Source: Verrucomicrobiales bacterium
GTDB taxonomy: Bacteria; Verrucomicrobiota; Verrucomicrobiia; Limisphaerales; JAQGOY01
DNA: 51,586 nt
Assembly: GCA_028293375.1 (NCBI GenBank)
Contig: JAQGOY010000228.1
Span: forward strand, 1 to 51,586
Direction of reading: 5' to 3'
Position 1 is the stretch's first letter, and each line of letters begins with the position of its first letter. Under the pieces are notes generated by a model. That model saw nothing but the letters and a program-made list of their open reading frames with translations, was not told the DNA's origin and made no database searches. The position numbers and the translations under genes are program-made. Of this stretch, positions 1,980 to 24,075 are shown one piece after another.

Positions 1980-3233
1980 TTACCGGAAAAGTGCCTGCGG
2001 GGGAGGGGTGATGGGGTTTGCGTTCCTGGATTTGAATTTTCTGTCGTAGAGCTCAGCAAGCCGTTTTCCGATGGTTCTCCACGAGAGTCTTTGTGAAGCG
2101 GTTTCTATGGCGGCTATGGAGAGTCGTTTTCGTAGCGATTCGTCTTTTAGGGCTTCGACCGTTTCGGTGATGAAGGCTTCAGGAGTGTCGGCGAGGAGGA
2201 TATCCTGTTTGTGAATCAGGTCCAAGCCTTGTGCGCCGATGGTGGTGGAAATGACAGGCGTTCCCAGGGCCATCGATTCAACTATTTTTAACCGGGTTCC
2301 ACCACCGATGCGGAGCGGGACGATTTGTAGCCAGGCCTGCCCGTAGTAAGGTCGAACATCGGGGACGCCTCCGGTAACGTGGACGCCCGGTTTGTCACCG
2401 TAAGCTTTGACTTCGGGTATTGGACTTTTACCGACGATGAGGACCTGCAGATTCGGTATCTGTTTCCGGATGCCTTCGTGGATGGCTTCGAAATACCAGC
2501 GAAGAGCGTCGACGTTGGGGTTGTAATCCATCGCGCCGCAGAAAATAAGGCTCGGGTTTTCGGCACGGGCTGTCGGGATTGGAGACTCCCGGAAGTAATC
2601 CAGATCCACACCGTTCACCACCACTTCGATTGGAACTGTTTTGCTGATGTACTTTTGAATGAAGACTTTGTCATCTGGCCCGCAGACGACCTCCATCGCG
2701 GCGCGGGCCGCGACCTTTTTTTCAAACGCAAGAAGCTTGGCATACCCTTCGTAACGCAAAAATCTGGTCTTGAGAGAGAAATTCATGCGCGAATGTTCCG
2801 CCAACTGAAATTGGAGATCGACCCGGCTGCGATCAACGATCATGGGGATGGATGCACGTTTCTTGTTGGTAAAATATTGAGCAAGGACAATATCGCAGAC
2901 ATGAACGGCGTCGTATTTCCCTGCAGTCAGGAGCCGGTCGAGGACAGGTTCCACCTGAGGAAGTGTCCAGTGAGCGACGTTTGGTGGCAAAGGATTCAGG
3001 AGTCGATCCGGAAACATTTTTTGCCAGTCGGGATGTTTGAAGGAGATGGTTTCGACTCTGTTACAAAATTCAGCGAAGACGTGTTTGTGCTCTTCACCTT
3101 CCCCGTTTTCAGTGAGGGCCAGGAGGTCAACTTCATGGACGCCGGCCAATTCCTTCAGAAGATTGAAAGTGCGATGGTAAGTGCCGCGGTCCAGCGGGTA
3201 GGGAAGGTAAGGATAAAAAACGAGAAGTTTCAT
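1980..3233 (-). CDS. Glycosyltransferase family 4 (GT-B), TIGR03087-like sugar transferase
   Basis: A GT-B fold retaining glycosyltransferase of about 417 residues. The N-terminus MKLLVFYPYLPYPLDRG resembles sugar transferases of exopolysaccharide loci. The C-terminal donor-binding half has NPSLIFCGAMDYNPN, then VPLRIGGGTRLKIVESMALGTPVIST with the usual E-x7-E type acceptor/donor motif. It should add a sugar to a lipid-linked glycan on the cytoplasmic face. I prefer the ATG at 3233 over an upstream in-frame codon at 3287, because it gives a canonical N-terminus and lies 4 nt after the stop of the preceding gene, implying co-translation. Donor and acceptor cannot be told from sequence. Confidence 0.9.
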   Translation of the reverse strand: MKLLVFYPYLPYPLDRGTYHRTFNLLKELAGVHEVDLLALTENGEGEEHKHVFAEFCNRVETISFKHPDWQKMFPDRLLNPLPPNVAHWTLPQVEPVLDRLLTAGKYDAVHVCDIVLAQYFTNKKRASIPMIVDRSRVDLQFQLAEHSRMNFSLKTRFLRYEGYAKLLAFEKKVAARAAMEVVCGPDDKVFIQKYISKTVPIEVVVNGVDLDYFRESPIPTARAENPSLIFCGAMDYNPNVDALRWYFEAIHEGIRKQIPNLQVLIVGKSPIPEVKAYGDKPGVHVTGGVPDVRPYYGQAWLQIVPLRIGGGTRLKIVESMALGTPVISTTIGAQGLDLIHKQDILLADTPEAFITETVEALKDESLRKRLSIAAIETASQRLSWRTIGKRLAELYDRKFKSRNANPITPPPQALFR

Positions 3234-3237
3234 ATCG

Positions 3238-4377
3238 TTAATTATAGTGGCTCCAGAGTTGGCGATAGGCATGAACCAGCTCGGCATGGCTGGTGGCGAT
3301 GGTGTTTAATTCCGATTGGATAAAGCGAAGCAATGCCGGGTCATTGATCGATTCAGGTTTCCACAGCAACAACGGCAGGGTGTTTAGGAGCCGTTCCCGG
3401 GGATAGCGTGAGGATTTGTCACTTAACAATGATTTAGGACCAAATTTCCGAAGATTGATCAAACGATTTTTGGTGTCGGCCGTGTCGGGACATTTGTTGA
3501 TGGGAGACAATGCGTATTGTTCGACGTCGGCAAAATGTTGTTCCAGACGAAGATTTTCCAGCCAAAGCCAGACTTGCTGAGACACAGTTTTGAGCTCGGT
3601 TTGTGTTTGTTGAAAATCGCACGCTGCTCCCTCACGCCGGGTTGGATGAAGTTTAAAGTCCACTCCATCGAAGTGAAACGCCTTCACTGATTTCATCCAG
3701 GGAAGTGTGTCCTCCATGGCTTGAAGATATTGGGCCCGAGTGACGCTGCTCCAGTGGTAACGCTGATTGACAGTCAGGACGACATCCCCGAACGCGAGCT
3801 TGGCCTTGCATTGATTGCGACCGACGAAATCCGCATCCTCAGGACTGAAATCTTTTTTCGCCAGGGCCACCTCGGAAAACAAGAGGCCGGAGCAGCGATT
3901 CATCAGGAGACGAATGGCTTCAGCGAGTTTGATGTTCGCGGCAACACGGTGAACATTGGTGCTTTTGAGGATGGTAGGGCTCCCCAACAAAACCTTGTGG
4001 CCCATGACCAGGTCATAAAAGAACATGGTGGTGGGGCCGGTGATAATTTTTTCCAGCGGCAGGATCTTGAACTCCACCTCGATACCGGCTTTTTCCGTGC
4101 AACGATGAGCGATGTCCTGAAGCTGTCTGCCATAACGTTTCTCGTTGAGAAAAGCAGGACCAGCGATGCAGACATAAAATTCCATGTCGTTATAAGGAAG
4201 ATCGCTCGAAGGGGATTTAAGAACACCCCCTTCGCCCCGCCCATAACCTCCACCCAGAATGATGGCTTGCAGGCGAGATCCCGGCACGACAGCGGTGATG
4301 CCTTCGACCACCGCCTCAGAGACCGAGCTGAGGTGAGATTCCAGTTCGTCAGTACCGTCGAGGGTGAATCGATCCAT
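3238..4377 (-). CDS. Hypothetical protein with nucleotidyltransferase-like N-terminal motif
   Basis: 379 residues from the preferred ATG at 4377, which overlaps the previous stop as TAATG, a typical coupling junction; a longer start at 4413 would overlap by 37 nt. I do not recognise a named family. The N-terminal part has IILGGGYGRGEGG followed after about 15 residues by NDMEFYV. This looks like the GG/GS...D-x-E metal-binding pattern of the polymerase-beta nucleotidyltransferase superfamily. The remainder is mixed helical and has no transmembrane segment. It sits between two glycosyltransferase genes, so a nucleotidyl or phospho-transfer role on a glycan precursor is possible but unproven. 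A degenerate or substrate-sensing domain is the alternative. Confidence 0.7.
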   Translation of the reverse strand: MDRFTLDGTDELESHLSSVSEAVVEGITAVVPGSRLQAIILGGGYGRGEGGVLKSPSSDLPYNDMEFYVCIAGPAFLNEKRYGRQLQDIAHRCTEKAGIEVEFKILPLEKIITGPTTMFFYDLVMGHKVLLGSPTILKSTNVHRVAANIKLAEAIRLLMNRCSGLLFSEVALAKKDFSPEDADFVGRNQCKAKLAFGDVVLTVNQRYHWSSVTRAQYLQAMEDTLPWMKSVKAFHFDGVDFKLHPTRREGAACDFQQTQTELKTVSQQVWLWLENLRLEQHFADVEQYALSPINKCPDTADTKNRLINLRKFGPKSLLSDKSSRYPRERLLNTLPLLLWKPESINDPALLRFIQSELNTIATSHAELVHAYRQLWSHYN

Positions 4378-5645
4378 TACCGGTTGTACGGTTGTAGTGG
4401 CACTGGCGCCCATGATTTGAAACTTTCCTTGAGGAAATGATCGGCCTGGTCGAGATAAGCTTTTTCGTTGTAACGGGCATGCACCTCGGTTCGTCCGGTG
4501 TTGGCGATTTGGAATCGAAGTTCAGGATTTTTGTCCAACCGCAGAATTTGACGAGCCAGTTGTTCGGAGCTGCCGGCATTGTAAGTCAAAGCATTCTGAC
4601 CTTCGCGAAATAACTCTTTGCTACCGCCGGTCATCGTCCCAATTACAGGCAACCCGCTAGCCATGGCCTCCAGGGGAGTGATGGCGAATGGCTCCTCCCA
4701 CTCCGAAGTGAAAAGAAGAGCGTCGTGTTCTCGATACAGTGCTGGCATGGCGTCGGGTGAACTGACCGAGGTGAACTTGATGGGCAATTTTCGAGAAGCG
4801 GCGTAGTCGCGCACTTCCTTCTCGTAATCGGCCTCGCCTTTGCCGCAGACGGTTAGTTCACCGGCGAACTTGTCGCGCACCAATTCCATGGCCTTGATGG
4901 CTGTCATGGTGCCTTTATCCTGGGTGATGCGGCCCACAACCAAAAGTCGTTGAAGTGGTTTATCCACCGGTTTCACGGGAGCGTTGAAGCGTTCGATATT
5001 TACCGGGCAATAAGTGATGATCCCTTGAGAGACAGGAAAACCCGCTTCCGCGGTAAAGGTCCGAAGGAACTCACTGCAAAACTGCACATTTCTAAAAACA
5101 AGGTGCTTCACCGGATTGGTTGGTGTGACTTTTTGGCAACGACCCCGAAAACCGCTGACTGTTCTCAGGTTGCGAAGAATCCGTTGCTTGAAACTTGGAT
5201 TGTTGCAATTCCACCAGCGAAGCCATACATCCGCTTTTTCGCATCGAGCGATCCAATGATCGGAGACGTAAAAAGCGGTGGGAATACCCAGTTCCTGGAG
5301 TGTGAGTAGCATCGACTTGGAAAGCCCGCCCATGTTCCAGATATAAACCAGGTCCGGCGACACCTTTTCCAGGACCGAACGCAGGGTGCGATTATTGTAT
5401 TTCTCCAGGCTTTGAAGTTGGTGAATTCCCAGCCATGGGTTTCCATACATCCCGTGAATTTTCAACAAACGGTAGACCGTTTTCTCATTTTCGGGGATGG
5501 GCGACTTGTCCAGCCCGTAATCCGAAGTCAGGACATGCATTTCGTGGCCACGGCCCCGCAGGCCTTCCACCGTATTATGGCAGTTCAGCTCATAGCCACC
5601 GATGAAGAAGGGGGGATAAAGATTACTGAGCGTAAGAATTCTCAT
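4377..5645 (-). CDS. Glycosyltransferase family 4 (GT-B)
   Basis: A 422-residue GT-B glycosyltransferase. It opens with MRILTLSNLYPPFFIGGYE, the glycine-rich loop typical of GT4 enzymes that take nucleotide-sugar donors, and HEMHVLTSDYG follows. The C-terminal donor half has LLVVGRITQDKGT and SEWEEPFAITPLEAMASGLPV, containing the conserved E-x7-E. It is predicted to be cytosolic or peripheral at the inner membrane, extending a lipid-linked oligosaccharide. Its 5' end overlaps the upstream GT2 gene by 23 nt and its stop shares bases with the next start (TAATG). Sugar specificity is not visible. Confidence 0.93.
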   Translation of the reverse strand: MRILTLSNLYPPFFIGGYELNCHNTVEGLRGRGHEMHVLTSDYGLDKSPIPENEKTVYRLLKIHGMYGNPWLGIHQLQSLEKYNNRTLRSVLEKVSPDLVYIWNMGGLSKSMLLTLQELGIPTAFYVSDHWIARCEKADVWLRWWNCNNPSFKQRILRNLRTVSGFRGRCQKVTPTNPVKHLVFRNVQFCSEFLRTFTAEAGFPVSQGIITYCPVNIERFNAPVKPVDKPLQRLLVVGRITQDKGTMTAIKAMELVRDKFAGELTVCGKGEADYEKEVRDYAASRKLPIKFTSVSSPDAMPALYREHDALLFTSEWEEPFAITPLEAMASGLPVIGTMTGGSKELFREGQNALTYNAGSSEQLARQILRLDKNPELRFQIANTGRTEVHARYNEKAYLDQADHFLKESFKSWAPVPLQPYNR

Positions 5646-6516
5646 GATTTAACCCTCGATAATGTTTCCAACCTTCTCGGAATCCCTCGAGTTTTCCCTT
5701 TCGCTGATGCCAGCGTATGCGCGCGGCGTGCGGCATCTCGGCCAGTCGTTTCTCCCGGAGACAGTATTGCAAGTCGTGACGAAGATCGCTGATTACGCCG
5801 AGCGCCACGGTCCGGCCAAAGTTGAAATAGTTGGGGTTTTTCTTCCAGGAAGCAGCAAGGGCTCGGGCGTCGCCAAAGCTTCGTTTGTAGGATTGCTGGG
5901 GCGTGTAATTGTGGGAATGCATGACGACCGATTCCGGCACGTAGACCACGTCATAACCTTGCTGGCGGGCCCAGCGGGTGTATTCATCATCCTCGGCGTA
6001 CTGAAGCTTTTCCAGAAACCCGCGCTTGCTCCAGATATCCTTCCGAAGACCACTGCTGACCATGCTGAAGAAATGATCCCACTTGGTCGAGATGCGGTTT
6101 GGGCCGAAGCATCGATCATAGTCGCAGGCAAATACCGCCTGGCAGTCCGGCCTTGGAATTTGTTGTCCGAAAACGGCAGCGGTGTTCGGGTTAAATAGTT
6201 TTTCCGCCAGGGGACGCAACCAGTTCTTGCCCTGCGGCGTCGCGTCGGCATTCACGAAAATGCCATATTCCGAAGAGGCGACTTCCATGCCCCAATTCAT
6301 CACGCGGCTGGGATTGTATTCCGGCGGAGTTATCTGTTTGAAATGCCGGGGTTTAAAATTCTTGATGAGGTCCACAGAACCATCGGTGGAACCGGAGTCG
6401 ATGACGATCAATTCCCAATTGCTATACTCCTGGTTTTGCAAAGCAGGAAGCGTATCGCGCAATGCCCAGGCTTCATTATAGGAACGCAATATTATGCTGA
6501 GTAATGGATCGCTCAT
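5623..6516 (-). CDS. Glycosyltransferase family 2 (GT-A)
   Basis: 297 residues with a GT-A fold. The N-terminus has LSIILRSYNEAWALRDTL and then ELIVIDSGSTDGS, the nucleotide-binding region of GT2 enzymes. A metal-binding DxD-like element appears as VNADATPQG. The YAEDDEYTRWARQQGYDVVYVP segment matches the usual catalytic ED acidic motif. No transmembrane helices are apparent, so it probably works on the cytoplasmic face on a membrane-linked acceptor. It overlaps the flippase gene by 4 nt (ATGA) and the following GT4 gene by 23 nt. It resembles rhamnosyl/glucosyl transferases in general form, but the sugar is undetermined. Confidence 0.93.
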   Translation of the reverse strand: MSDPLLSIILRSYNEAWALRDTLPALQNQEYSNWELIVIDSGSTDGSVDLIKNFKPRHFKQITPPEYNPSRVMNWGMEVASSEYGIFVNADATPQGKNWLRPLAEKLFNPNTAAVFGQQIPRPDCQAVFACDYDRCFGPNRISTKWDHFFSMVSSGLRKDIWSKRGFLEKLQYAEDDEYTRWARQQGYDVVYVPESVVMHSHNYTPQQSYKRSFGDARALAASWKKNPNYFNFGRTVALGVISDLRHDLQYCLREKRLAEMPHAARIRWHQRKGKLEGFREGWKHYRGLNHENSYAQ

Positions 6517-8123
6517 GCTGTTTTCCCGGCTTTAAAAATTCTGGGAAATTTACGCGCAACTTGAAATCGGTCGGATGTCGTCATGGCATAATTCCAGAGG
6601 CCGATGAAACCAATGAACATGCCGAGAACGCATTGGCCAATCATAATGATCGAACTTTTTCGGTAATCGAGCCATGGGGAATAAAAAGTAAGAAGTAAGT
6701 AAGCCACCAAAGGTAAACAGCCTCGAAGTGTGGGGAACAGGACCTTCCGCAGCATCCCCATCAAGGAAAGCTCTGCCTCTTTTGCCGCCCATGGAAGAAT
6801 GTATCCAAAGCCAAAGACCATGGTGGCGATGAGTGAGCCTAGGGCCACACCAATGACATTGTGAAATTTGACGATCAAAGAAACGCTGAGCACCAGGTTA
6901 AGGAGCGCTTCACCAAGACCCATCCACATCAACTTCCGTTCATGACCGCACATCATAAAAATGCGCTTGGTGACACTCTGGGTAAGTAGAGTTACAAATT
7001 GCCAGGTGAGAAGAATTTCCCCAACCCAGAACGTTTCAAAATAAAAAGTCCTGTCGCGTGATAGGAAGGCAATCATTCCCTGCATGTAAAAAAGACCAAT
7101 CAGAAAAGCAGGAGTGGCGATCATGACGCTGAAACGGGTGCCATCCAGGAGCAGCCTGCGCAATACTTCCTTTTCGCCTTTGGCATGAAGATGAGCGGCA
7201 GCCGGACTAAATGTGTCGGGGAGTTGATTGGTAAAGGTTCCAAATACTTCGCCGACCTTCGCGCCAGTCTCGTAAAGTGCGACCGAAGATACTGCCTGGA
7301 CAATACCGATCACGAGGCGATCAGTCTTGCCGAGAATCATGTTGCTCAAAGTGCTGATGTAAGTGAACACCGAGAAACGAAGCGTTTCCACGATCATCTT
7401 TGGCGAAAAATATTTAGGCAACAACTTGACGTGAGGAAGTTTTTTCAAGGCACAGGCCCCGCAAAGGGCACTGGGAACAATCGCGCTCGCGAGTGAAATG
7501 ATGACGATGGTTCTTAGACCCAGGTGTTGACGAATCGCCACCGTAATAAAAACAAAATTCAAAACGCCAGTTACCGAAAAAATCATGTTCGCCAGGAAGA
7601 TACGCTGCTGACCGATCAGAATCTCCGGAAAAATACCGAGAGGAAAACCGATACCGATGCCGCAGAAGAAAAGCACCATGATTTGCCGAAAGATTTCGCG
7701 GTTTGGCGGGCTGATGTTGAACATGCCAATCAAGGCGTGTGAAAAGCCAAAGGCGATTCCAACGATGATCAGCGCGATGACAACATAGAGATAAAAAATG
7801 GTGCTTAATACCTGGCTAAGTTCCGTCCAGTTTTGGTGAACGGAGAGTTCCGCAACTTTCTTGACCGCAGTAAAACCAAATCCGAAATCGAGAAGAATTC
7901 CGAATCCGAACACACTCCAGAGAAGAGTCCAAAAACCGAATTCCTCAGTGTGAAGGCCTTGCTTCAGGACCCCGAACATAACGACGCCGAGAGCCATGCG
8001 AAGCCCCATGGCGAGGTAGTTGGAGATGGAATTCCTCCACATGTGCCTGGCCATCTCCTCATGGGGAGACTCCATAGGCGACTTATGTACGTCCGGAGCT
8101 GCTGGAGCGGCTGTAACTGGCAT
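6513..8123 (-). CDS. Polysaccharide flippase (Wzx/MATE-like, MOP superfamily)
   Basis: 536 residues with about 12-14 hydrophobic helices. A hydrophilic N-terminal tail of about 30 residues precedes MWRNSISNYLAMGLRM, as in oligosaccharide flippases of the MOP superfamily. The expected role is moving an undecaprenyl-linked repeat unit across the inner membrane. The ATG at 8123 lies 2 nt after the NRPS stop; an alternative start at 8150 would overlap the NRPS gene. The stop overlaps the GT2 start by 4 nt. No recognisable Wzy polymerase gene is seen nearby, so either polymerisation is encoded elsewhere or the product is not a Wzy-type polymer. Confidence 0.88.
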   Translation of the reverse strand: MPVTAAPAAPDVHKSPMESPHEEMARHMWRNSISNYLAMGLRMALGVVMFGVLKQGLHTEEFGFWTLLWSVFGFGILLDFGFGFTAVKKVAELSVHQNWTELSQVLSTIFYLYVVIALIIVGIAFGFSHALIGMFNISPPNREIFRQIMVLFFCGIGIGFPLGIFPEILIGQQRIFLANMIFSVTGVLNFVFITVAIRQHLGLRTIVIISLASAIVPSALCGACALKKLPHVKLLPKYFSPKMIVETLRFSVFTYISTLSNMILGKTDRLVIGIVQAVSSVALYETGAKVGEVFGTFTNQLPDTFSPAAAHLHAKGEKEVLRRLLLDGTRFSVMIATPAFLIGLFYMQGMIAFLSRDRTFYFETFWVGEILLTWQFVTLLTQSVTKRIFMMCGHERKLMWMGLGEALLNLVLSVSLIVKFHNVIGVALGSLIATMVFGFGYILPWAAKEAELSLMGMLRKVLFPTLRGCLPLVAYLLLTFYSPWLDYRKSSIIMIGQCVLGMFIGFIGLWNYAMTTSDRFQVARKFPRIFKAGKTA

Positions 8124-8125
8124 TT

Positions 8126-11100
8126 TTATTTTCCGGCCTCTTCGAGGCACCGTTCAAGTTGTTTTGCCAGCAACTTTACATTTGGCTCCATCAGGATGGT
8201 ATCGTGATCTCCCGGAACGATATGTCGTTCAATTTGCTTAACCAGCGATTTCCACCCGTAATTGGGATCAGGTATAACGGCAGGATCCTGGATGGCAGCA
8301 TTGAAGAGAATAATCTTCCCTGCATACTTGTGGGACTCGTAACCGTCCAGAGCATTAAGGTTGGTGTGATAAATGTGCTCCAGGTTATCGAGAAATTTAT
8401 TTCTTTCAGCCACTTTGACCGGATCTTCGATTTCTTCGAGACTGGCGCGTTTGAATCGCATTTCGTCGGCGAGCCGAACACCTCGATAATAATTCACCTT
8501 GGCCACGACGTATCGTTTCCATTGCAGGGGAGACATACTGAACAGACATTGGAAGCGGCGCAGGGCGTAACGAATATTGGAATAGCCTGGCGAGGGGGCG
8601 GGAGTTTCAATCAGCGCCAGCAGTGCTGTTTTTTCACCCATCCTGGCCAGTTGCTGCGCCATTTCCACCGCGAGGATTCCGCCGTAACACCAGCCGCCCA
8701 GAAAATAGGGGCCATGCGGCTGGACGGTTTGGATTTGTTGAATATAATAACGCGCCATTTCCGGCACGTTGGTGTGAGCCAGGGAACTGTCCTTAAACCC
8801 AAGAGATTGCAAACCGTAACAGGGTTGTTCGGTGCCCAGATGATATACCAGGTTGCCATATCCGAGCACGTCACCCGGAGTGGTATGAATGAGAAATAAT
8901 GGTTTCTTAGTACCAAGGGTTTGCAATGGAACCAGCGACGACCATTCCTCGGGTCTGCTGACCTCTTCAATTTTTCGCGAAATAGCCTCGATGGTGGACG
9001 CCTGATAAAGAATTCCCATAGGCAATTTCTTGCCGCTAACCCTTTCTATTTCGACGATCAGCTTCATGGCCTGAAGCGAATCACCGCCGAGTTCAAAAAA
9101 GCTAATGTCGGTTCCAATCGGGCGCCGGTTCAGAAAACGCTCGAACACCAGTTGAATCTGCATTTCCAGTGGTGTTTGAGGAAGCTTGATACTCTGGTCG
9201 TGCTCTTCCACTACCGGTTTCGGCTCGGGAAGCGCTTTGCGGTCCACCTTACCGTTTGGAGTTAACGGAAGTTTCTCCAGTTTGACAAAGGCCGCTGGCA
9301 CGCAATAGACAGGGAGCTTTGTTTTCAGGTAATCGCGCAGCTCAGGGATGGTGTAAGTTTTTCCATTTTGGGTTACGATGTAAGCTACCAATTGTTTTTC
9401 CCCGCCGGTGACCACGCGAGCCACCACCACCGATTCGCGAACCGCAGGATGTTTGCTGAGGACGGCCTCGATCTCGCCGAGTTCCACACGGTAACCTCGA
9501 ATCTTTACCTGGTGATCGATACGCCCCAGGAACTCCAGATTGCCATTGGGTAAAAAGCGGGCCAGGTCGCCGGCCTTATACATTTTCGCACCGGGTTTCG
9601 AACTGAATGGATCGGGTATAAAGCGCTCATCGGTCAAATCCTGGCGATTGAGATACCCGCGAGCCAGGCAATCTCCCCCAATGAATAATTCCCCGGGCAT
9701 TCCGATCGGAACGAAATCTTTTTGCTCATTGAGAATGTAAATTTTCGCATTGGCTATCGGTTTCCCGATGGAGGGAAGAGGAGGCCAATAGAGTGCGCTG
9801 CCTTTCAAATCGTGGGCGGTCACCACATGGGTTTCAGAAGGCCCATATTGATTGTGCAAGGTGCATTCTTTCAGTTTGGTAAAAAATTGCACAATTTGGG
9901 GTGTGACCTGGAGCTGTTCCCCCGCAGTAATAACTTCGGCGAGCTGATTCGGGTAAATTGAATTCCGTTCAGCCGCTTCTGCCAGGTGCTTTAATGCAAC
10001 AAAGGGCAGAAAGATGCGCTGGATCGATTGTTCGGCAATGAACTGGATCAAGAGATTTGAATCGCGGCGATTGTTCTCGGGAATCATGACCAGCGTGCCG
10101 CCTGAGCAGGTGGTGGAAAATATTTCCTGGAACGAAACATCGAAATTCAGTGACGAAAACTGAAGCGTGCGCGCCGGGAGGGTGTAGCCCCAATTATCGA
10201 ATTGCCAGAAGAGCAGATTGACGAGCGGCCCCTGGCGCATGGCCACCCCTTTGGGCTTGCCCGTGGATCCGGAAGTATAAATGAGATAAGCGAGATGATC
10301 TTCAGACGTCCTGCACACCGGATTGGTATTGGGAGCGTCTGCAAATTGGGCCGCGTCGCGATCCAGGCAGAGGAGTCGGGTTTCAGTATCAGGAATTTCT
10401 TCGATTAGACTTTCCTGGGTCAGAAGCAGCGGAGCACATGTGTCTTCGAGCATGAAGGTCAGTCGATCCTTCGGATAACTGGGGTCGAAGGGAACGTAAG
10501 CGCCGCCCGCCTTGATGATGGCGAGAACAGCGATGGCGAGTTCGACCGAACGTTCCAGGCAGACTCCGACAACAACGTCTTCCCTTACACCGCTTTTTTG
10601 CAGGAAATGAGCGAGCTGATTGGCTCTTTCGTTGAGTTCATAGTAAGTCAGAGATTTTAATGGACTGTTTCCCAGGGGGGCGCAGACAGCAATGGTGGAA
10701 GGGGTCTTTTCGACTTGAGCCTCGAACAACGTTTTTAGATTTTTTACCGGTGGGTAATTGGTGTTCGTCTTGTTGAAAAGCCCAAGGATCTGAGTCCTTT
10801 GCGCTGGGGGGACCATATCCAGATCCTTGAGATTCTTCTCGGGGTGCTCCACCATTTGGCGCAACACCCAGGCGTATTGCTGAAGGAGCGCCTCCACGGC
10901 TGCTTTATCGAGGGCTGACCCTGAAAACTCAAGGTTCAAACCTCCGCTGGCTCCATTGACTGTAACCTTGATGCCCTGGGGATTTCCGGCAACGAATCCT
11001 CGATCGCCATTTGGACCGAATTCAACCAGACTTTCAATAATCGGCTGGTTATTGGGGATTTCGCACCACTGACGGAGATCCTTCGCTGAGGCGGCATCCT

Positions 11101-11581
11101 GAGACTGATAGGAAGAGAGCTCCACGTCCAATTCCATGAGCCAGGCCGATACCGATAGGCTGCTTTTTACATCGAGTATCAGGGGCCAAAATAAATCGCT
11201 CGCTGGAATCCCTTCAAACCGGGTGCCGAAAACCACCCGTTCTTCAGTACTGTAAGCGCCCAGCAAAAGAGCCCATGCCCCTAGGTAAACGGTTTCCGGG
11301 CAAACATTGGCTTTGGAAGTGAACTGAAGAAGCAACGACTGAAACTGGGCGTCAGTGCTGGAATAGCGAGTGACGTAGTGGTGATCTTCCCTGGGAGCCT
11401 TCACCGGCCGGACCAGATTGAAAGAAGTTGGCGCGCTAAAATAAGAAAGTTTGGTTTTCCAGAACTCGCGATCGCTGCCAGGATTTTTAGCGGCAGCAAT
11501 TCTGGCAGTTTTCCCAACTTTCAAACGATCGGTTTGAACTGAGGTGGCCATATGACGTCTCTTTAGTTTTCTTGGCCTCAC
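8126..11581 (-). CDS. Single-module non-ribosomal peptide synthetase (partial C - A - PCP - TE)
   Basis: 1151 residues. Residues about 35-250 look like only the C-terminal half of a condensation domain; the HHxxxDG catalytic motif is absent. The adenylation domain (about 280-785) has YTSGSTGKPKG (A3), NQYGPSE (A5), YKAGDLARF (A7), VKIRGYRVELGEIE (A8) and NGKVDRKALP (A10). The carrier domain has LGGDSLQ with pantetheine-accepting Ser835. The thioesterase (about 890-1145) has GGWCYGG, so the nucleophile is Cys965, not Ser, with a late PGDHD as the probable His region. By hand alignment to PheA the pocket reads D-V-Q-F-I-A-Q-V-V, close to the proline-type code. The GTG at 11581 overlaps the previous stop (GTGA); an ATG at 11551 is an alternative. 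The product probably decorates the locus glycan or lipid. Confidence 0.92.
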   Translation of the reverse strand: MRPRKLKRRHMATSVQTDRLKVGKTARIAAAKNPGSDREFWKTKLSYFSAPTSFNLVRPVKAPREDHHYVTRYSSTDAQFQSLLLQFTSKANVCPETVYLGAWALLLGAYSTEERVVFGTRFEGIPASDLFWPLILDVKSSLSVSAWLMELDVELSSYQSQDAASAKDLRQWCEIPNNQPIIESLVEFGPNGDRGFVAGNPQGIKVTVNGASGGLNLEFSGSALDKAAVEALLQQYAWVLRQMVEHPEKNLKDLDMVPPAQRTQILGLFNKTNTNYPPVKNLKTLFEAQVEKTPSTIAVCAPLGNSPLKSLTYYELNERANQLAHFLQKSGVREDVVVGVCLERSVELAIAVLAIIKAGGAYVPFDPSYPKDRLTFMLEDTCAPLLLTQESLIEEIPDTETRLLCLDRDAAQFADAPNTNPVCRTSEDHLAYLIYTSGSTGKPKGVAMRQGPLVNLLFWQFDNWGYTLPARTLQFSSLNFDVSFQEIFSTTCSGGTLVMIPENNRRDSNLLIQFIAEQSIQRIFLPFVALKHLAEAAERNSIYPNQLAEVITAGEQLQVTPQIVQFFTKLKECTLHNQYGPSETHVVTAHDLKGSALYWPPLPSIGKPIANAKIYILNEQKDFVPIGMPGELFIGGDCLARGYLNRQDLTDERFIPDPFSSKPGAKMYKAGDLARFLPNGNLEFLGRIDHQVKIRGYRVELGEIEAVLSKHPAVRESVVVARVVTGGEKQLVAYIVTQNGKTYTIPELRDYLKTKLPVYCVPAAFVKLEKLPLTPNGKVDRKALPEPKPVVEEHDQSIKLPQTPLEMQIQLVFERFLNRRPIGTDISFFELGGDSLQAMKLIVEIERVSGKKLPMGILYQASTIEAISRKIEEVSRPEEWSSLVPLQTLGTKKPLFLIHTTPGDVLGYGNLVYHLGTEQPCYGLQSLGFKDSSLAHTNVPEMARYYIQQIQTVQPHGPYFLGGWCYGGILAVEMAQQLARMGEKTALLALIETPAPSPGYSNIRYALRRFQCLFSMSPLQWKRYVVAKVNYYRGVRLADEMRFKRASLEEIEDPVKVAERNKFLDNLEHIYHTNLNALDGYESHKYAGKIILFNAAIQDPAVIPDPNYGWKSLVKQIERHIVPGDHDTILMEPNVKLLAKQLERCLEEAGK

Positions 11582-12348
11582 GAAACTTTTCTATCGGGGC
11601 TTTTACGAAGGAACGCAAAGGTATCTCCCTCTTCCCGGGCCACTTTGAAGCCAGCGTGGATGAGGGTGGATACGATATCGTAGGTGGCGGCCTGGCCGAG
11701 CACCCCTGGGTGCAGCTCGATGATGATCTTGTCGATGCTGTTCGGAAGCATGCTGAAGTCGATAAACTTTTCGGCTCCTTCAATGTCGATGATTAAAACA
11801 TTCGGAGGACGAGCGGCAAGCTGGAGCAGGGTGGGCAACGGCACGCTCTTGACCTTGATGGTTTTGCTGCGGTCGGCCGAAGCGGCCATGACAACAGAAT
11901 TTTCCCAGAAATCATTGCCTATATCGAGGTCTATCGTGCCTTCCTCCTGGCCAAGGGCGACATTGAGGACATTGGGTGTGACGTGGTTGAGCGCGTAATT
12001 CTTTTTAAGAATATTTACCGTTGCCGGGTTTGCTTCAACGGTGAGATAGTTCTTGATCCCAAGACGCTTCTGGCAATAAAGCCCGATGAAGCCGATGGCC
12101 CCGCCTACTTCAACGACCGAATCTTCGCTGGTCAGGAAATCACGGCACATCTGCTTTTCATGTTCTTCATATCCGACATTTAGAATCCGGTTTCGAATTT
12201 TCAATGGCAGCTCGGTCAGGTCGAGAACGATGCCTTCCAGGGAAGTCTTGTGGACCTTGGGAAGAACATATTTAAAGTAATATTTGATCCAGAAGTCCTG
12301 GTACTTTTGGAACAGGCTTTGTGAAACCGGAAAGGATAGTTTGGTCAT
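11578..12348 (-). CDS. FkbM-family SAM-dependent methyltransferase
   Basis: 256 residues. SAM-binding motif I is seen as VVEVGGAIGFIGLYCQ, followed by LTVEANPATVNILKKN, the conserved FkbM acidic ribose-binding segment. LIIDIEGAEKFIDF matches the FkbM post-motif block. FkbM enzymes usually O-methylate sugars or polyketide hydroxyls, and their presence in glycan operons fits terminal sugar methylation. No membrane segment is seen. It starts 24 nt after the phosphodiesterase stop, one of the few real gaps in this operon, and its own stop overlaps the NRPS start (GTGA). The substrate could be a sugar of the glycan or the NRPS-derived group. Confidence 0.92.
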   Translation of the reverse strand: MTKLSFPVSQSLFQKYQDFWIKYYFKYVLPKVHKTSLEGIVLDLTELPLKIRNRILNVGYEEHEKQMCRDFLTSEDSVVEVGGAIGFIGLYCQKRLGIKNYLTVEANPATVNILKKNYALNHVTPNVLNVALGQEEGTIDLDIGNDFWENSVVMAASADRSKTIKVKSVPLPTLLQLAARPPNVLIIDIEGAEKFIDFSMLPNSIDKIIIELHPGVLGQAATYDIVSTLIHAGFKVAREEGDTFAFLRKSPDRKVS

Positions 12349-12372: not shown

Positions 12373-13569
12373 TTAGGCGCCTGCGGGAGTCAAAACGGTT
12401 TGCTGCTGGCGATTCGAATCTTTCGCCTGGGTGGCTGCCGCTTTCATCAAGTTGCAAATATGAGGAATGTCGGTGATCTCCCCGGGTATCTCCGGTTGAT
12501 TGGTGAACAACGCGGCATAACTTTGGGGATCGTCTGGATGATAGCCGTGCATGGCCGTGATGGGACGCTCGCCCATGTGGCTCGGGACAATCAAAACACC
12601 TTCCTTCATCAGGAAAATGGTCTCACCAAAATACTTGTCATCGAAGTAAGCCTTGAGTTCCTTAAGTTCTTCATCGGGGAGAATTCGACCTTCCGGCACG
12701 CCCTGCAGGACATCGTGAATTTGGACGCGAGCCTCGGAAGTAAAAAACCAGAAGCGCGCCATGGTGGAGTCATAAACCACGGAATAGTCTTTACCCATTT
12801 TCACCGGCAGCTTTTCTATTTTTGATTTGAGGTCGATGTGGACATCGCAATTCGCCATGCCATGGTCGCTGAAAACATAGAGCACCACTTTACGGTAATG
12901 GCCTTGTGCGGCCTTAAGCACTTTGTCGATCCATTCCTCATACATGGCCAGGCGTTCATGGACCAGGGGGGAACGGTTTCCCACATTGTGCAGGAGCCCG
13001 TCCAAACCGGGCCAGTAGGAGAACGAAAAATCTATTTTTTCGGACTGGATTTCGTTGATCAGGTTATCGCGGTTCTGCTCCTCAGTCAGGGCAGGATCGC
13101 TCACGAAATAGGGAATATTGGAACTGACTAGAAAATCAAAAATGTTGTCCCCGCGATTCATGCCCTTCGGTTTCAGCGGGCTTTTTTTCTCGGTGAAATT
13201 GTAGTTCGAGATGTGCTGGAACGGAATGTTATAGAGGTCGAAATACCCTTCAAAATCCAGCGTTTTACGCACCAGTTTCGTCAGAGCGCGGCGGACAATT
13301 CTGCGGCTGGTCAGCGCCTTGGGCAGAAATCGTAAAACGCGGAGATTGCGGAAAGGTGAATTCTCCGGATCATGGACGAAGTAGCACCAATTGCGGTGAT
13401 CCTGTGGCCAGCGCCCGGAAAGGATGGAGGGCACGCAGGTCGAAGAGTAGCCAAACACCGAGCGAAGCTTCTTGCGCTTCGGTGCGGCTTTCTTGAGGAA
13501 ATCGGTATTCTTGATGATTTCCCACCCGCAGGCGTCGATCATGATGCAAAGCGGCAATACATTTTTCAT
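12373..13569 (-). CDS. Alkaline phosphatase superfamily protein (type I phosphodiesterase/nucleotide pyrophosphatase-like)
   Basis: 398 residues with the metal-binding layout of the alkaline phosphatase superfamily. Asp12 lies in CIMIDACGWE. The likely nucleophile is Thr44 in YSSTCVPSILSG, followed by the usual W/H region. Further metal ligands appear as DGLLHNVG, SDHGMANCD and AMHGYHPDD. Relatives cleave phosphodiesters or transfer phospho-groups, and some act as sulfatases. There is no signal peptide, so it is probably cytoplasmic. Its ATG overlaps the stop of the pyrophosphatase gene (ATGA). In this setting it could trim a phosphorylated or nucleotide-linked intermediate; the substrate is not deducible. 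Confidence 0.85.
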   Translation of the reverse strand: MKNVLPLCIMIDACGWEIIKNTDFLKKAAPKRKKLRSVFGYSSTCVPSILSGRWPQDHRNWCYFVHDPENSPFRNLRVLRFLPKALTSRRIVRRALTKLVRKTLDFEGYFDLYNIPFQHISNYNFTEKKSPLKPKGMNRGDNIFDFLVSSNIPYFVSDPALTEEQNRDNLINEIQSEKIDFSFSYWPGLDGLLHNVGNRSPLVHERLAMYEEWIDKVLKAAQGHYRKVVLYVFSDHGMANCDVHIDLKSKIEKLPVKMGKDYSVVYDSTMARFWFFTSEARVQIHDVLQGVPEGRILPDEELKELKAYFDDKYFGETIFLMKEGVLIVPSHMGERPITAMHGYHPDDPQSYAALFTNQPEIPGEITDIPHICNLMKAAATQAKDSNRQQQTVLTPAGA

Positions 13570-15200: not shown

Positions 15201-15553
15201 ATCGAGGCTGGCATAAGGCGCCTGACTTCTGAGACGAGTTGAGTCGGACTAAATGGCTTGGTGAGGACAATTTCGTTCTCATTTGACCGCGGCAGCAGCA
15301 TGCCGGGAGGAATCTCTGACATGCGGATCACGGGTATGTGTTTTTGGGTCATGCGAAGAAGTGCAATCACCGGATCGAACAACTCGCGGCTGGAATCATC
15401 CAAAAGCACCATGCTGAACTGATTCAGCTGCACCGCCCTTAAGGCGTCTTCGCCGTTCCGGGCCTGCACCATTTCATACCCGGCTCGCTCCAAATGATGT
15501 TGCAGCAGCCTTAGCATGAACAATTTTGTGTCTAGTACCAGAATTTTGTTCAT
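15197..15553 (-). CDS. Stand-alone response-regulator receiver domain
   Basis: 118 residues, a single CheY-like receiver with no output domain. The phosphoacceptor is Asp52 in MVLLDDSS and the conserved Lys is K99 in VLTKPFSPTQLV. The acidic pocket is reduced: the usual DD pair near the N-terminus reads LDTK with only Asp8. It may still be phosphorylated, or may act as a protein-binding module. It lies between the SpoIIE-type phosphatase gene (4-nt overlap) and the pyrophosphatase gene (4-nt overlap), so it is probably part of the same regulatory switch. No cognate kinase gene is adjacent; the giant hybrid kinase at 24 kb is the nearest. Confidence 0.88.
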   Translation of the reverse strand: MNKILVLDTKLFMLRLLQHHLERAGYEMVQARNGEDALRAVQLNQFSMVLLDDSSRELFDPVIALLRMTQKHIPVIRMSEIPPGMLLPRSNENEIVLTKPFSPTQLVSEVRRLMPASI

Positions 15554-17346
15554 AACTTCTTGTTTTCGTCCATCAATACAATGAATGTTTGATCATCGTA
15601 AAGTGTTCCACCATCTTGAAATTTGTTAAGCTCGAGAACGAGGGATTCCTTTAACTCCTCCGCAGAATTAAAGGACAAGGCGTTTTTTTCCATCCAGTTA
15701 AAGAGTCGGTTTTGTCCAAAGAAATCGTTGGTCGCGTTTTGGGCATCGGTGACACCGTCGGTGTAAAGCAGGACGCGGGAACCCGCAGGGAAGGGCAGGG
15801 TCGCCTCTTCAAAAGTTGTATTGGGAAGTATCCCCAGCGGCAAACCGTCCGGTGCCACCGTTGTCAGGCTGGTCTGGCCGGGGCTCATGATCAGAACCGG
15901 GCAATGGCCTGCCGTGGCTGCGCTCAAGGTCCGCTCAGTCATATTGATTTTCAATACTTCTGCCGTGATGAACATGCCCACGTCCGAAAGCTCATCGAAA
16001 AGCATGGTGTTGATTCGAGTCATGATCGCGCGAGGACTGTTGAGCTCGGTAGTGGCCCGCAACGCGCTTCGAAAGATCGCTGCAAACATCGCTGCCGGAA
16101 TTCCTTTGCCCATCACATCCGCGATGATGGCCAGGACGCAGTTTCCATCCTGGTGGATAACCGTGTAGAAATCGCCCCCCACCTGCCTGGCGCTTTCGCA
16201 ATGGGCGGCCAAACCAAGCCCTGGCAATACGGGCAGTTGTTTCGGCAACAGTGCCCGCTGAATATTCTTTGCGATTTCCAGTTCGTGCGAAGTCAGCCGG
16301 TGACTCATCTGTTCTTCACGGAACCTTGCGTTCACGATTTGAATGGCGAGAAAATCGGCAAAGGTATGGATGACGTTGGCGTGCGCGGCAGTGAAGGACG
16401 AACGGCCCATTTCCTTTCCAACAGTCAAGGTTCCCACCAGCTTACCTCCAAAATAAAAGGGATGCACCAGGCCGATCGAACTTGGTTTGATTTCCTGCCA
16501 GGCCCCCTGATTGGTTTTGGAAAGTTTGGGATCAAACCAAACATCCTGTCGCGACAGGGCAGCGCTGACTTCGGCATGTGATCCTTGCTCCGGAACATTT
16601 TCCAGGGAAAGGGAATCCAGTTTCAGCGAAGGTTCAGAAGCTGTAAAAACAATGAGTCGTTCTTCTTCCTTGGGCACAACTCGCAAAACGAACCAGTCCG
16701 AAGAAGTAATCTGGAGCAGATCAGAGCACAGGCAGCGGGCAAATTCGGCAAGGTCATCGGTTTTTCCAAGGTCTGTGCCGCAACGAAAAATGGCCGAGAG
16801 ACTTTCGTAACACGAACTTAACTCCTCCGTCATGTCATGAATGATTTGCTCATTCTCGGCGAGACGATCCTTGTAGGCCTCGAGCGTCGGTTCGGAGGAA
16901 TAATTGTCCGGAAGCACCGCTCCGCTTCCGTACTTTTTGAGAATGAGTGTGTTGCCTGCGGCCGCTTTTTCGTAGCTCACATCGTCCATGATCGAACGCA
17001 TCAGGAAAATTCCGCGACCGCTTTCGCTTTCGTGTTCCGGCAGTCGAGATTGCAGCGGAAGGGTGAAACCGGGTGTGTGATCCTCAATTCTCAGTTCCAG
17101 CGTATTGTCGTCCGTAATGGCGTGCATGACGATGGGTTTGGAACGCCCTGCCTCTTCGCAATAGAGAACGGCGTTGTTGCAACCCTCTACCATGGCCAGT
17201 TCGCAGGCCATGATGTCCTCTTCCGTCGTGCCGTTTTGTTTGAGAAAACGGCAAAGCTGCGAGACTGCATCTCGAACCATTTCCAGTTGGCAGGGCAGGG
17301 TTACCGAGAAACGTCTTGAAACCGTGGTTGCGGCTGACAAAAGCAT
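15550..17346 (-). CDS. RsbW-like HATPase - GAF - SpoIIE/RsbU phosphatase fusion
   Basis: 598 residues in three parts. Residues about 10-140 are an anti-sigma-type HATPase (ELAMVEGCNNAVLYC as N-box, RIEDHTPGF as G1, ESGRGIFLMRSIMDDVSYE as G2). Residues about 190-350 are a GAF-like domain. Residues about 365-595 are a PP2C-type SpoIIE phosphatase with metal-binding VGGDFY, IADVMGKGIPAAM, LLYTDGVTDAQN and DDQTFIVL. Kinase and phosphatase of a partner switch are thus in one polypeptide, opposing each other on a STAS-domain antagonist such as the product of the gene just upstream. The start overlaps that gene's stop (TAATG). The GAF ligand is unknown and no sigma-factor gene is in view, so the final target is open. 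Confidence 0.93.
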   Translation of the reverse strand: MLLSAATTVSRRFSVTLPCQLEMVRDAVSQLCRFLKQNGTTEEDIMACELAMVEGCNNAVLYCEEAGRSKPIVMHAITDDNTLELRIEDHTPGFTLPLQSRLPEHESESGRGIFLMRSIMDDVSYEKAAAGNTLILKKYGSGAVLPDNYSSEPTLEAYKDRLAENEQIIHDMTEELSSCYESLSAIFRCGTDLGKTDDLAEFARCLCSDLLQITSSDWFVLRVVPKEEERLIVFTASEPSLKLDSLSLENVPEQGSHAEVSAALSRQDVWFDPKLSKTNQGAWQEIKPSSIGLVHPFYFGGKLVGTLTVGKEMGRSSFTAAHANVIHTFADFLAIQIVNARFREEQMSHRLTSHELEIAKNIQRALLPKQLPVLPGLGLAAHCESARQVGGDFYTVIHQDGNCVLAIIADVMGKGIPAAMFAAIFRSALRATTELNSPRAIMTRINTMLFDELSDVGMFITAEVLKINMTERTLSAATAGHCPVLIMSPGQTSLTTVAPDGLPLGILPNTTFEEATLPFPAGSRVLLYTDGVTDAQNATNDFFGQNRLFNWMEKNALSFNSAEELKESLVLELNKFQDGGTLYDDQTFIVLMDENKKL

Positions 17347-17648
17347 TAGCGTTTAACAATTTCGAATATCCGATGCATGCGAGTGAGTTCCAGGATCTGT
17401 TGGACAGGGGGGGTTGGATTGACAAGCCGCACCATGCCGTTGCGGCTGCAGGTGGTTTTGTGAAGGCTGATCAGGGCGCCAAGGCCACAACTGTCGACGA
17501 ACATGGTTTGAGAAAGGTCTATCTCTATGATTTTGTGAGCCTCGGATAGGGAGGCCCTTACCTGATCCCGAAAGGAATTGGAGTTTGCTGCCGCTAATTC
17601 CTTGATGCCTGTGATGCTAAGGGTTTCACCGTTGGTTTGAGCTTTCAT
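17346..17648 (-). CDS. STAS-domain anti-sigma factor antagonist (RsbV/SpoIIAA-like)
   Basis: 100 residues forming one STAS domain. The motif MFVDSCGLGALISLHK carries the phosphorylatable Ser53 after Asp52, as in SpoIIAA/RsbV. It should be phosphorylated by an RsbW-type kinase and dephosphorylated by a SpoIIE/RsbU phosphatase; both activities appear to be in the next gene product. It is the first gene of the long operon, about 60 nt after a candidate promoter, so the switch is probably made together with the glycan/NRPS enzymes. Confidence 0.93.
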   Translation of the reverse strand: MKAQTNGETLSITGIKELAAANSNSFRDQVRASLSEAHKIIEIDLSQTMFVDSCGLGALISLHKTTCSRNGMVRLVNPTPPVQQILELTRMHRIFEIVKR

Positions 17649-17896: not shown

Positions 17897-19192
17897 TCAG
17901 TTCGGCGCAGTCCTGCCGAAATGGAGAATTTTTTTGACCAGGGTTGCTTCCCGGCCACTGGTTTCCTTTTTCGAAAGAAAGAATCTTTTGATGCAGGCGA
18001 CAATGATTTTCAAGTCCAGTTTCCAATCCGCCTGCACGGAATAAAAACTCGAATGTGCTTTGGCCTCTTCACAAAATGGCTCAATGCATCCCTGAGCTTC
18101 GGATAATGACATGAACCCCAGCGGAACGGAGAGCCAAAGCTTCTCAAAATCGTTCTCCAATTTTCTTGCCTCGTTGGGCGTCAAAGGCCGGTTTCCAACC
18201 CAAACGAACTCCCCCTTGACAATATTCCACATTTGCGGCCATCGGCGAAGTCCGCCTTGAAAGAACGGAAACTCAAAATAAATAATCGGCTTGGCCTGTG
18301 GATAGCCTTGTGGAGGTGTCGCCCGGCGGGGACGAACTATCCGTTGTCCCATCAGTAGCATCCACCCCGCAGCAAGGCCCACGATCGGGCTCGTAACTAC
18401 CATCAACCCGGCCGCCACCGCTCGTCCGCATAATCGTTGCAGATACTGCGAGTTTTCCAACGGCCGCAGGGAGCAGAGGAGAAAAGCGTCCACGATCTTC
18501 GTATGGGAACCGGTATTCCAGTTCATTAACTGAGCTCCCGAGGCAATCGATTGATTGAGAGTAATGGCCGAACCTACGAATGTCTGGGAACCGATTAGGC
18601 TTTCTCGGATTTCTGCGCCTTCCTCGACAACCACTTCGTTTTCCAGGATGACGCACGGGCCCACCACCGCCTTGTTACCGATTTTTGCGCGATCACCAAT
18701 CCAACAGGGGGCAGTTAGCACTGCGGTGCTGGAGATGTTGGCCTGTCGACCAACCCAGATGCCCGGGCGTATTTCTTTTACTCCGACCCGGTTGGACATG
18801 TCTGGATGGTCCAGGTTTTGTGAAACTACACGAAAGAGATCGCCAAGGCTGGAAAAAAGTTTCTGGTCAGGTTTCCATGGAAAGGAGTCTGCCACATGGC
18901 ACTCGATCCCGGCACCCGCCTTGTCAGCGGCCTCAGCAAGCGAAAGCTCGCGCGCCGTTGGCTGGACTAACAGTTTAACACCCCACCTTTCGCCTTCCCC
19001 GAGCGTTTCACGGATTTTCTCCGGCCTGTCACTGGCGAATAGGGTGATTTCCTTGCAGCCGCGCAAAACCAAATGCTCTATCCAGTATTCCAATAATGGT
19101 TTACCGAGCAGGGTAAATAGGCCCAGGGGGGCATTTTCGGCGAGGGATGCTACGGATTCTCTCTGGTGTGGGCAGATGAGACATGCATTCAT
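17897..19192 (-). CDS. Nucleotidyltransferase - left-handed beta-helix - degenerate phosphoglycosyl transferase fusion
   Basis: 431 residues. The first 110 resemble a sugar-nucleotidyltransferase domain (LGLFTLLGKPLLEYWIEHL, then KEITLFASDRPE), but the G-x-G-T-R-hallmark loop is not evident. Residues about 145-225 are hexapeptide-like repeats (ISSTAVLTAPCWIGDRAKIG, NKAVVGPCVILENEVVVEEG). Residues about 245-400 resemble a monotopic phosphoglycosyl transferase: a membrane re-entrant helix (AVAAGLMVVTSPIVGLAAGW), then RRWPQMWNIVKGEF and VGNRPLTPNEA. The catalytic Asp-Glu of that family (LDE before PQ..N in the neighbour) is Arg-Arg here, so this part is probably inactive and may bind membrane or partner. 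It starts 4 nt after the active PGT gene. Function is inferred as sugar activation or a scaffold. Confidence 0.8.
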   Translation of the reverse strand: MNACLICPHQRESVASLAENAPLGLFTLLGKPLLEYWIEHLVLRGCKEITLFASDRPEKIRETLGEGERWGVKLLVQPTARELSLAEAADKAGAGIECHVADSFPWKPDQKLFSSLGDLFRVVSQNLDHPDMSNRVGVKEIRPGIWVGRQANISSTAVLTAPCWIGDRAKIGNKAVVGPCVILENEVVVEEGAEIRESLIGSQTFVGSAITLNQSIASGAQLMNWNTGSHTKIVDAFLLCSLRPLENSQYLQRLCGRAVAAGLMVVTSPIVGLAAGWMLLMGQRIVRPRRATPPQGYPQAKPIIYFEFPFFQGGLRRWPQMWNIVKGEFVWVGNRPLTPNEARKLENDFEKLWLSVPLGFMSLSEAQGCIEPFCEEAKAHSSFYSVQADWKLDLKIIVACIKRFFLSKKETSGREATLVKKILHFGRTAPN

Positions 19193-19196
19193 TTTG

Positions 19197-19922
19197 TTAA
19201 TAAGCTCCTTTACTAAACAGAACCGCAGGCACTGTCTTCAACAGGATGCGCACATCGCCCAAAAACGATTGGCTTTCGATATACTGCACATCCAATAGAA
19301 CCTGTCCTGGAAAATCGATTTCGCTTCTTCCGCCGATCTGCCAAAGACAGGTGATTCCTGGCTTCGCAAGCAATCTGCGTCTGTCTTGCAAAGTATACAA
19401 TGCGACTTCACGAGGTACTGGGGGTCGGGGACCCACTAATGACATATCCCCTTTTAACACGTTGAAGAATTGAGGAAATTCATCAAGCGACAATTTTCTC
19501 AGCCATTTCCCCACTTTAGTGATGCGGGGATCGTCCTTCATTTTAAAGGTGATGCCCTCGGTGTGTTGATTTTTGGCAAGCAATTCTTTCATTTTAGCTT
19601 CGGCATCCACGCACATGGAACGGAACTTAAACATTTTAAATTCTTTCCCATCCTTGCCCACGCGGCGTTGCGCAAAGATCACCGGCCCGCCGTCCTCCAG
19701 TTTCACCAGTAGCGCCAGAAGGATAAAAATCGGCGAAAAAACGAGGATAAACATCAAGCTGGCCAGCACGTCAAAAAACCGTTTCACCGCAAGCGTCGCT
19801 GCCAGCATCCACTGCCAGGAATGGCGCTTCCAGGCGGAATAAGCTCTCAGGCGCATTCGCCCTGTCTTGGTTCGCATTAACTCCAGTCTTTCCACTGTCG
19901 GCGCTGTTGAATGGTTCACCAT
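19197..19922 (-). CDS. Monotopic phosphoglycosyl transferase (initiating sugar transferase)
   Basis: 241 residues. A hydrophobic re-entrant segment (VKRFFDVLASLMFILVFSP, IFILLALLVKLED) is followed by GGPVIFAQRRVGKDG, KMFKFRSM and LSLDEFPQFFNVLKGDM with VGPRPPVP. The Asp-Glu in LSLDEFPQ is the catalytic dyad of the PglC/WcaJ-type family. It would transfer a sugar-1-phosphate from a UDP-sugar to undecaprenyl phosphate, the first membrane step of glycan assembly. There is only one membrane segment, so it is the small form rather than the five-helix WbaP type. It lies 7 nt after the uridine-kinase-like gene and 4 nt before the fusion gene, within one operon. Confidence 0.93.
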   Translation of the reverse strand: MVNHSTAPTVERLELMRTKTGRMRLRAYSAWKRHSWQWMLAATLAVKRFFDVLASLMFILVFSPIFILLALLVKLEDGGPVIFAQRRVGKDGKEFKMFKFRSMCVDAEAKMKELLAKNQHTEGITFKMKDDPRITKVGKWLRKLSLDEFPQFFNVLKGDMSLVGPRPPVPREVALYTLQDRRRLLAKPGITCLWQIGGRSEIDFPGQVLLDVQYIESQSFLGDVRILLKTVPAVLFSKGAY

Positions 19923-23955: not shown

Positions 23956-24075
23956 CCGTGCGGCTCAGATTGTATCCGGAAATCCCCTACCACTATCTAG
24001 GGCCAATTCCCTAATACTTTCCGAGACTTAGCCCTGATTGTGAGCTCGGGGGAGTGTGTTTATATAGGGCTTTCC

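Follow-up and report, generated by a model that had tools for sequence, protein, structure and literature searches.

In this study, we report the computational characterisation of a single-module nonribosomal peptide synthetase (NRPS) encoded inside a glycan operon of a Verrucomicrobiales bacterium (order Limisphaerales). The window, that is, the whole stretch of 51,586 nucleotides analysed here, is contig JAQGOY010000228.1 of a genome assembly with 281 contigs and 76% completeness. The NRPS gene lies between the genes for an FkbM-family methyltransferase and a Wzx-type flippase, and consists of half a condensation (C) domain followed by adenylation (A), peptidyl carrier protein (PCP) and thioesterase (TE) domains. 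We favour, with modest confidence, the reading that the enzyme is a single-amino-acid aminoacyltransferase dedicated to the cell-surface glycan of the operon.

Domain architecture of the NRPS

The open reading frame starts at position 11581 and ends at 8126 on the minus strand; its first codon is GTG, and residue 11 is an alternative ATG start. An earlier note, made from the sequence letters, had given the same coordinates, and the strand and the length of 1151 aa can now be added. Pfam matches were obtained for AMP-binding (residues 286-644), AMP-binding_C (703-778), PP-binding (812-869) and Thioesterase (894-1136). AMP-binding and TIGR01733 scored above their cut-offs on the A domain, which has the core motifs YTSGSTGKPKG and GKVDRKALP and a readable substrate pocket. 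The PCP, as in a canonical termination module, has its pantetheine serine, Ser835, within GGDSL, and a phosphopantetheinyl transferase is encoded in the same genome. These matches and conserved motifs agree with the earlier description of the A, PCP and TE domains as intact. The features of the locus are listed in Table 1.

Table 1 Features of the NRPS gene and the surrounding glycan operon
Feature	Positions	Strand	Basis or remark
Single-module NRPS, half-C/A/PCP/TE	8126..11581	-	1151 aa
Relic C-terminal half of C domain, residues 28-215; lacks the half with HHxxxDG as well as the internal GxExMVGxFINT and YPLT segments	10937..11500	-	
A domain, residues 286-785; pocket DVQFIAQVVK, predicted L-proline	9227..10726	-	Pfam, code comparison
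PCP, residues 800-872; Ser835 in GGDSL	8966..9184	-	Pfam
TE domain, residues 884-1148; motifs HTTPGDVLGYGN and GGWCYGG; putative triad Cys965/Glu992/His1126	8138..8932	-	
Codon of predicted nucleophile Cys965	8687..8689	-	
Codon of Glu992, putative triad acid at position I	8606..8608	-	Alignment with AB3403
Codon of His1126, putative triad histidine	8204..8206	-	
FkbM-family methyltransferase	11578..12348	-	Pfam; overlaps NRPS start by 4 bases
Wzx-type polysaccharide flippase	6513..8150	-	Overlaps NRPS end by 25 bases
GT2 glycosyltransferase	5623..6516	-	Conserved in syntenic loci
GT4 glycosyltransferase	4377..5645	-	
391-aa protein, nucleotidyltransferase-like motif GGGYGRGEGG...YNDMEFYV	3238..4413	-	Conserved in locus
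Glycosyltransferase resembling TIGR03087 (PEP-CTERM/XrtA type)	1980..3287	-	Under that model's cut-off
Type I phosphodiesterase-fold protein, locus marker gene	12373..13569	-	Pfam
SpoIIE-type phosphatase/kinase and STAS regulators of the locus	15550..17648	-	
Hexapeptide/nucleotidyltransferase-like protein and initiating sugar-phosphate transferase (Bac_transf)	17897..19922	-	

Relic of the condensation domain

The Pfam Condensation model matched residues 28-124 only, corresponding to model positions 185-280 of 456, with a score (35.1 bits) barely over the cut-off of 30.6. As the earlier note had recognised, only the C-terminal half of the domain is present; the HHxxxDG motif of a canonical C-A-PCP-TE module is absent because the half that bears it is absent. 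The N-terminal half was not found by profile when the whole window was read in all six frames, and a search of the bacterium's own genome gave no further C-domain piece on the NRPS contig. The retained half is also eroded inside, with 27 well-occupied alignment columns missing, among them the GxExMVGxFINT and YPLT blocks. The ratio of half-C to A-domain identity was 0.37, the lowest of 50 modules (modules without a C domain before the A domain excepted), as against 0.55-0.9 in most intact modules and 0.46 in the GNAT-fused orthologue of genome G145 described below. Half-C domains of the window and G145 are only 21-26% identical, compatible with either one shared loss or two separate ones.

An AlphaFold model of residues 1-300 gave a confident C-lobe core (blocks with predicted local distance difference test scores, pLDDT, of 85-96), with C1-A1 of McyB (8hlk) as the best match. 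Since the C-lobe fold is retained in the model, the half-C appears to be a folded relic of a C domain and not random sequence. Truncated N-terminal C domains (C*) are known in initiation modules such as ThdA, where they are thought to be inactive and possibly to modulate the A domain (PMC7253712).

The thioesterase domain

Alignment assigns a complete putative triad to the TE, with Cys965 as nucleophile, Glu992 as acid and His1126 as histidine. Cys965 stands in GGWCYGG, where the earlier note had placed it, and its catalytic role is predicted from the motif. The nucleophile was Cys in 31 and Ser in 34 of 75 distinct TEs, with 10 not assigned, in a sample that was gathered by searches with the window NRPS and is biased towards its relatives; Cys965 is therefore not unusual.

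The closest solved TE is that of AB3403 (4zxh; GGWCFGG), described as a Cys TE with its acid in the usual place (PMC11298585). Glu992 aligns with the Asp of AB3403 at this place, position I, and each of the nine clade members that were compared has an acid there (Glu, or Asp in genome G307). Judged by alignment to 4zxh, the window TE thus combines a Cys nucleophile with a position I acid, as AB3403 does. ObiF1 has Gly at position I and its catalytic Asp on another strand (PMC6668435). The window TE (GGWCYGG) shares the Cys nucleophile of the ObiF and SulM enzymes, but it has an acid, Glu992, at the position that is free of one in ObiF1. The analogy with the beta-lactone-forming ObiF drawn in the earlier note is consequently not supported, as Cys TEs are common and Glu992 stands where ObiF1 has Gly. 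An Asp (Asp1099), a second candidate acid, is found near the ObiF-type acid position (II) in four glycan-locus copies and is absent in G307 and the sister clade.

TEs of the glycan loci share the motifs H[ST]TPGD[VI]LGYG[NS] and GWCYGG, and the sister TEs have HT[SAC]PGDVLGYMKL and GWCFGG. The type of TE was also considered as proof of a glycan acceptor and was dropped, since related TEs also belong to ordinary assembly lines and to a C-less enzyme that is not surrounded by glycan genes.

NRPS orthologues in the same slot

Gene order was inspected in 62 stretches carrying the locus marker, the phosphodiesterase-fold protein. The block Wzx, GT2, (GT4) and 391-aa protein recurs in many of them. 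The content of the slot before Wzx differs among loci, and a glycosyltransferase of about 430 aa is frequent there. An NRPS orthologue in this slot, beside or between FkbM and Wzx, was found in the window and in four other genomes of the order, representing four families in all. In G005, from another family (f6), the whole operon is syntenic, with proteins 40-82% identical one by one; its NRPS lies between FkbM and Wzx, is 60% identical to that of the window, measures 903 aa and has no C domain. The NRPS of G100, of the same family as G005, follows FkbM and begins directly at the A domain before the contig ends. In G145 the slot (L143:5510-9682) between FkbM and Wzx holds a protein of 1390 aa with the architecture GNAT/half-C/A/PCP/TE. 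In G125, the contig opens with a carrier-TE part (58% identical), after which come Wzx, GT2, GT4, the 391-aa protein and a glycosyltransferase.

None of the slot copies that are readable at that end has HHxxxDG; the C domain is there either as a half (window, G145) or not at all (G005, G100). On the simplest reading of these sequences, a catalytic C domain is dispensable for the slot enzyme.

Two further enzymes are associated with glycan genes in other positions. The C-A-PCP-TE enzyme of G307 (L167:1924-5838) is encoded on the opposite strand, at the distal end of the same locus, adjoining a polysaccharide pyruvyl transferase, and its C domain is near-complete yet without the HHxxxD motif. 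G131 encodes a C-less A-PCP-TE of 964 aa (L246:3839-7433) with the pocket DAFWLGGTFK and a TE of the sister clade. A sugar-phosphate transferase with 69% identity to that of the window lies 4 bases away from it, and the two represent a second kind of NRPS-glycan pairing. A first scan of genome contigs with the single NRPS protein found no relative; when it was repeated with a two-row alignment, most of the hits were other NRPS modules, which served as controls only.

Proposed exchange of adenylation domains

The PCP-TE tree groups the window with G005 and G145 in a clade (100/86), which G307 joins (98/92) and inside which G125 falls; the bootstrap support for the PCP-TE of these glycan-locus enzymes is 98-100. 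The tree of A domains places those of the window and G005 among other proline-type domains and that of G145 elsewhere; a single A-domain clade for the window, G005 and G145 was rejected by the approximately unbiased (AU) test (p-AU 0.00013, quick tree). The identities between the window and G145 are 44% for the A domain, 62% for the PCP and 47-52% for the TE. Proline-type A domains of foreign enzymes reach 50-55% identity to the A domain of the window, while their TEs are about 30% identical.

The pocket code is DVQFIAQVVK in the window and G005, DAEDIGAITK in G145 and DAEDVGTIVK in G307. The codes DVQFVAQVVK and DVQFVSQVMK have been assigned to proline (PMC9113097). The A domain of the window is accordingly predicted, by code comparison, to load L-proline. 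The pockets of G145 and G307 might be read as basic-amino-acid codes, a reading to which we give little weight. The sequence comparisons fit a picture in which exchangeable A domains feed a conserved TE, and this TE would pass a single amino acid to an acceptor that is likewise conserved, the simplest candidate being the glycan of the operon.

The glycan operon

Read along the minus strand, the operon begins with the sugar-phosphate transferase, the nucleotidyltransferase/hexapeptide protein, the STAS, SpoIIE-type and receiver regulators and a DHH pyrophosphatase-like protein. It continues with the phosphodiesterase-fold protein, FkbM, the NRPS, Wzx, GT2, GT4, the 391-aa protein of unknown function and the TIGR03087-like glycosyltransferase. 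Family scans of the operon proteins recognised no small-molecule biosynthesis gene besides the NRPS, and no MBOAT was present among those scanned with Pfam.

The 391-aa protein is conserved at 34-51% identity in 22 other copies of the locus, and its invariant motif GGYGRG...YND is similar to the signature of Pol-beta nucleotidyltransferases. It matched no Pfam or NCBIfam family, a Pfam scan of 23 relatives again yielded none, and its structure model was uninformative (pLDDT 37). Of 313 genomes sampled in the order, 67 have a related locus marked by the phosphodiesterase-fold protein, which is 60-71% identical across most of the 67. This protein is thereby the marker of a glycan locus that spans the order and includes partner-switch regulators of the STAS/SpoIIE type. 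Elsewhere in the window, at 24040-31875 on the plus strand, a hybrid sensor kinase of 2611 aa was found with about 17 consecutive HAMP domains, GAF, HisKA, HATPase and three receiver domains.

Discussion

The earlier note had suggested that a single-amino-acid enzyme serves the glycan of the locus. The association with the glycan has been strengthened by the gene overlaps with FkbM and Wzx, through which the NRPS is coupled to the operon in translation, by the synteny of the operon and the occupation of the same slot in four more genomes; the transfer step itself stands as a proposal. In the proposed mechanism, the A domain would adenylate L-proline and load the prolyl group onto Ser835 of the PCP, from which Cys965, helped by His1126 and Glu992, would take it as a covalent acyl-enzyme. 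The TE would then hand the prolyl group to a sugar hydroxyl or amine in the lipid-linked repeat unit, or of a nucleotide-sugar precursor, in the cytoplasm and ahead of flipping by Wzx. The half-C would merely maintain the C-A platform, with no catalytic role. Transfer is more sensible than hydrolysis, because hydrolysing one unmodified amino acid only spends ATP. In G145, the different A domain together with an N-terminal GNAT, which may acetylate the amino acid and so possibly give an N-acetyl aminoacyl decoration, leads us to propose that the decoration varies between strains.

Several observations weigh against a glycan-dedicated aminoacyltransferase. The majority of loci of this kind have no NRPS, contig ends truncate the G100 and G125 copies, the AU test was based on a quick tree, and the branch of G307 is long. 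The operon position may also fit a co-regulated small molecule. A free product of this kind, for example an amino acid amide, an ester or a dipeptide released by the TE with a small nucleophile, is in our view unlikely, although the same wider TE family terminates ordinary multi-module assembly lines, and a C-less A-PCP-TE with a related TE (869 aa, HTTPGDILGY motif, L256:8091-10700) is encoded in a distantly related genome of the phylum, where none of the neighbouring genes was recognised as a glycan gene. Given such C-less enzymes outside glycan genes, the argument for the glycan rests on context and not on the type of TE, and the context, with the slot beside or between FkbM and Wzx kept in five genomes of four families and an operon in which no other gene was recognised as belonging to small-molecule synthesis, speaks against a free product. 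A loading station, whose PCP passes the prolyl group to a partner transferase as PacP (A-T-TE0) does to PacH (PMC8748450), appears still less probable: the conserved 391-aa protein would be a candidate partner, but it is also encoded in loci without an NRPS and so is not NRPS-specific, the putative Cys, Glu and His triad is kept, and PCP-TE is better conserved than the A domain between the window and G145.

The remaining explanations carry very little probability. Loss of the front half through an assembly error or pseudogene decay would account for a C domain that is both halved and eroded. The earlier note had allowed for a missing 5' portion with HHxxxDG upstream, which is excluded here by the six-frame search and by the family f6 orthologues without any C domain; nor can the missing half lie upstream in another frame, because the FkbM gene overlaps the NRPS start and the N-half profile was negative there. 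A continuous frame of 1151 aa with intact A, PCP and TE motifs, overlapping neighbours and a C-less orthologue of 60% identity make a broken gene highly improbable. An ObiF-like TE making a beta-lactone or other strained ring can scarcely be credited: Cys965 and the nearby Asp1099 are the points of likeness, whereas proline, the predicted substrate, has no beta-hydroxyl, an N-acylating C domain is absent, Cys TEs are common and position I holds Glu992 in place of Gly.

An aminoacyltransferase built on one A-PCP-TE module would differ from the known systems that it recalls. D-alanylation by Dlt likewise uses an A-domain enzyme and a carrier protein to attach an amino acid to a surface polymer, but DltA and DltC are separate, the membrane O-acyltransferase DltB acts and there is no TE, in contrast to the fused A-PCP-TE of the window. 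CouN7, CmaE and SyrC are (amino)acyl transferases that move carrier-bound groups (PMC8748450) to another acceptor, a likeness by description only; each is a stand-alone protein of a natural-product pathway, and the A and PCP proteins that it works with are likewise separate. In the clorobiocin and coumermycin pathways, a proline-derived acyl group is placed on a sugar hydroxyl (PMC8748450, PMC11218499). Such transfers, and the AneB reaction, are precedents for single steps of the proposed mechanism. The fungal AneB and ThmA resemble the window enzyme in joining one amino acid, by one module, to an outside alcohol as an ester (L-proline for AneB), but a C-terminal C domain (A-T-C) forms the ester on terpene acceptors (PMC10720950), whereas the window enzyme ends in a TE. 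AB3403 of Acinetobacter baumannii, a C-A-PCP-TE whose product is uncharacterised, shares the Cys nucleophile and the aligned position I acid, and differs in its complete C domain and in Asp where the window has Glu. ThdA also has a C-domain relic N-terminal to its A domain (PMC7253712), but it starts a multi-module assembly line, whereas the window module itself bears the TE and has no further module. ObiF1 and SulM, the beta-lactone and beta-lactam TEs, have the Cys nucleophile in common with the window TE and act on acylated or peptidyl substrates.

Going beyond the single enzyme, it is conceivable, and we suggest it tentatively, that the NRPS is a swappable cassette that diversifies the surface glycan, in which PCP-TE is kept for acceptor recognition and A domains, once with an N-acetyltransferase, are exchanged, so that related strains decorate one sugar backbone differently.

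Amino-acid decorations are known on bacterial surface polymers. No on-target report of NRPS modules in glycan loci was found in the open-licence literature, and to our knowledge this would, if true, be the first demonstrated case of an NRPS thioesterase that aminoacylates a polysaccharide precursor. The predicted substrate, proline, and a defined candidate catalytic residue make the model testable. If true, the finding would provide a compact enzyme for attaching chosen amino acids to sugars, and would link assembly-line enzymes to the diversification of polysaccharides.

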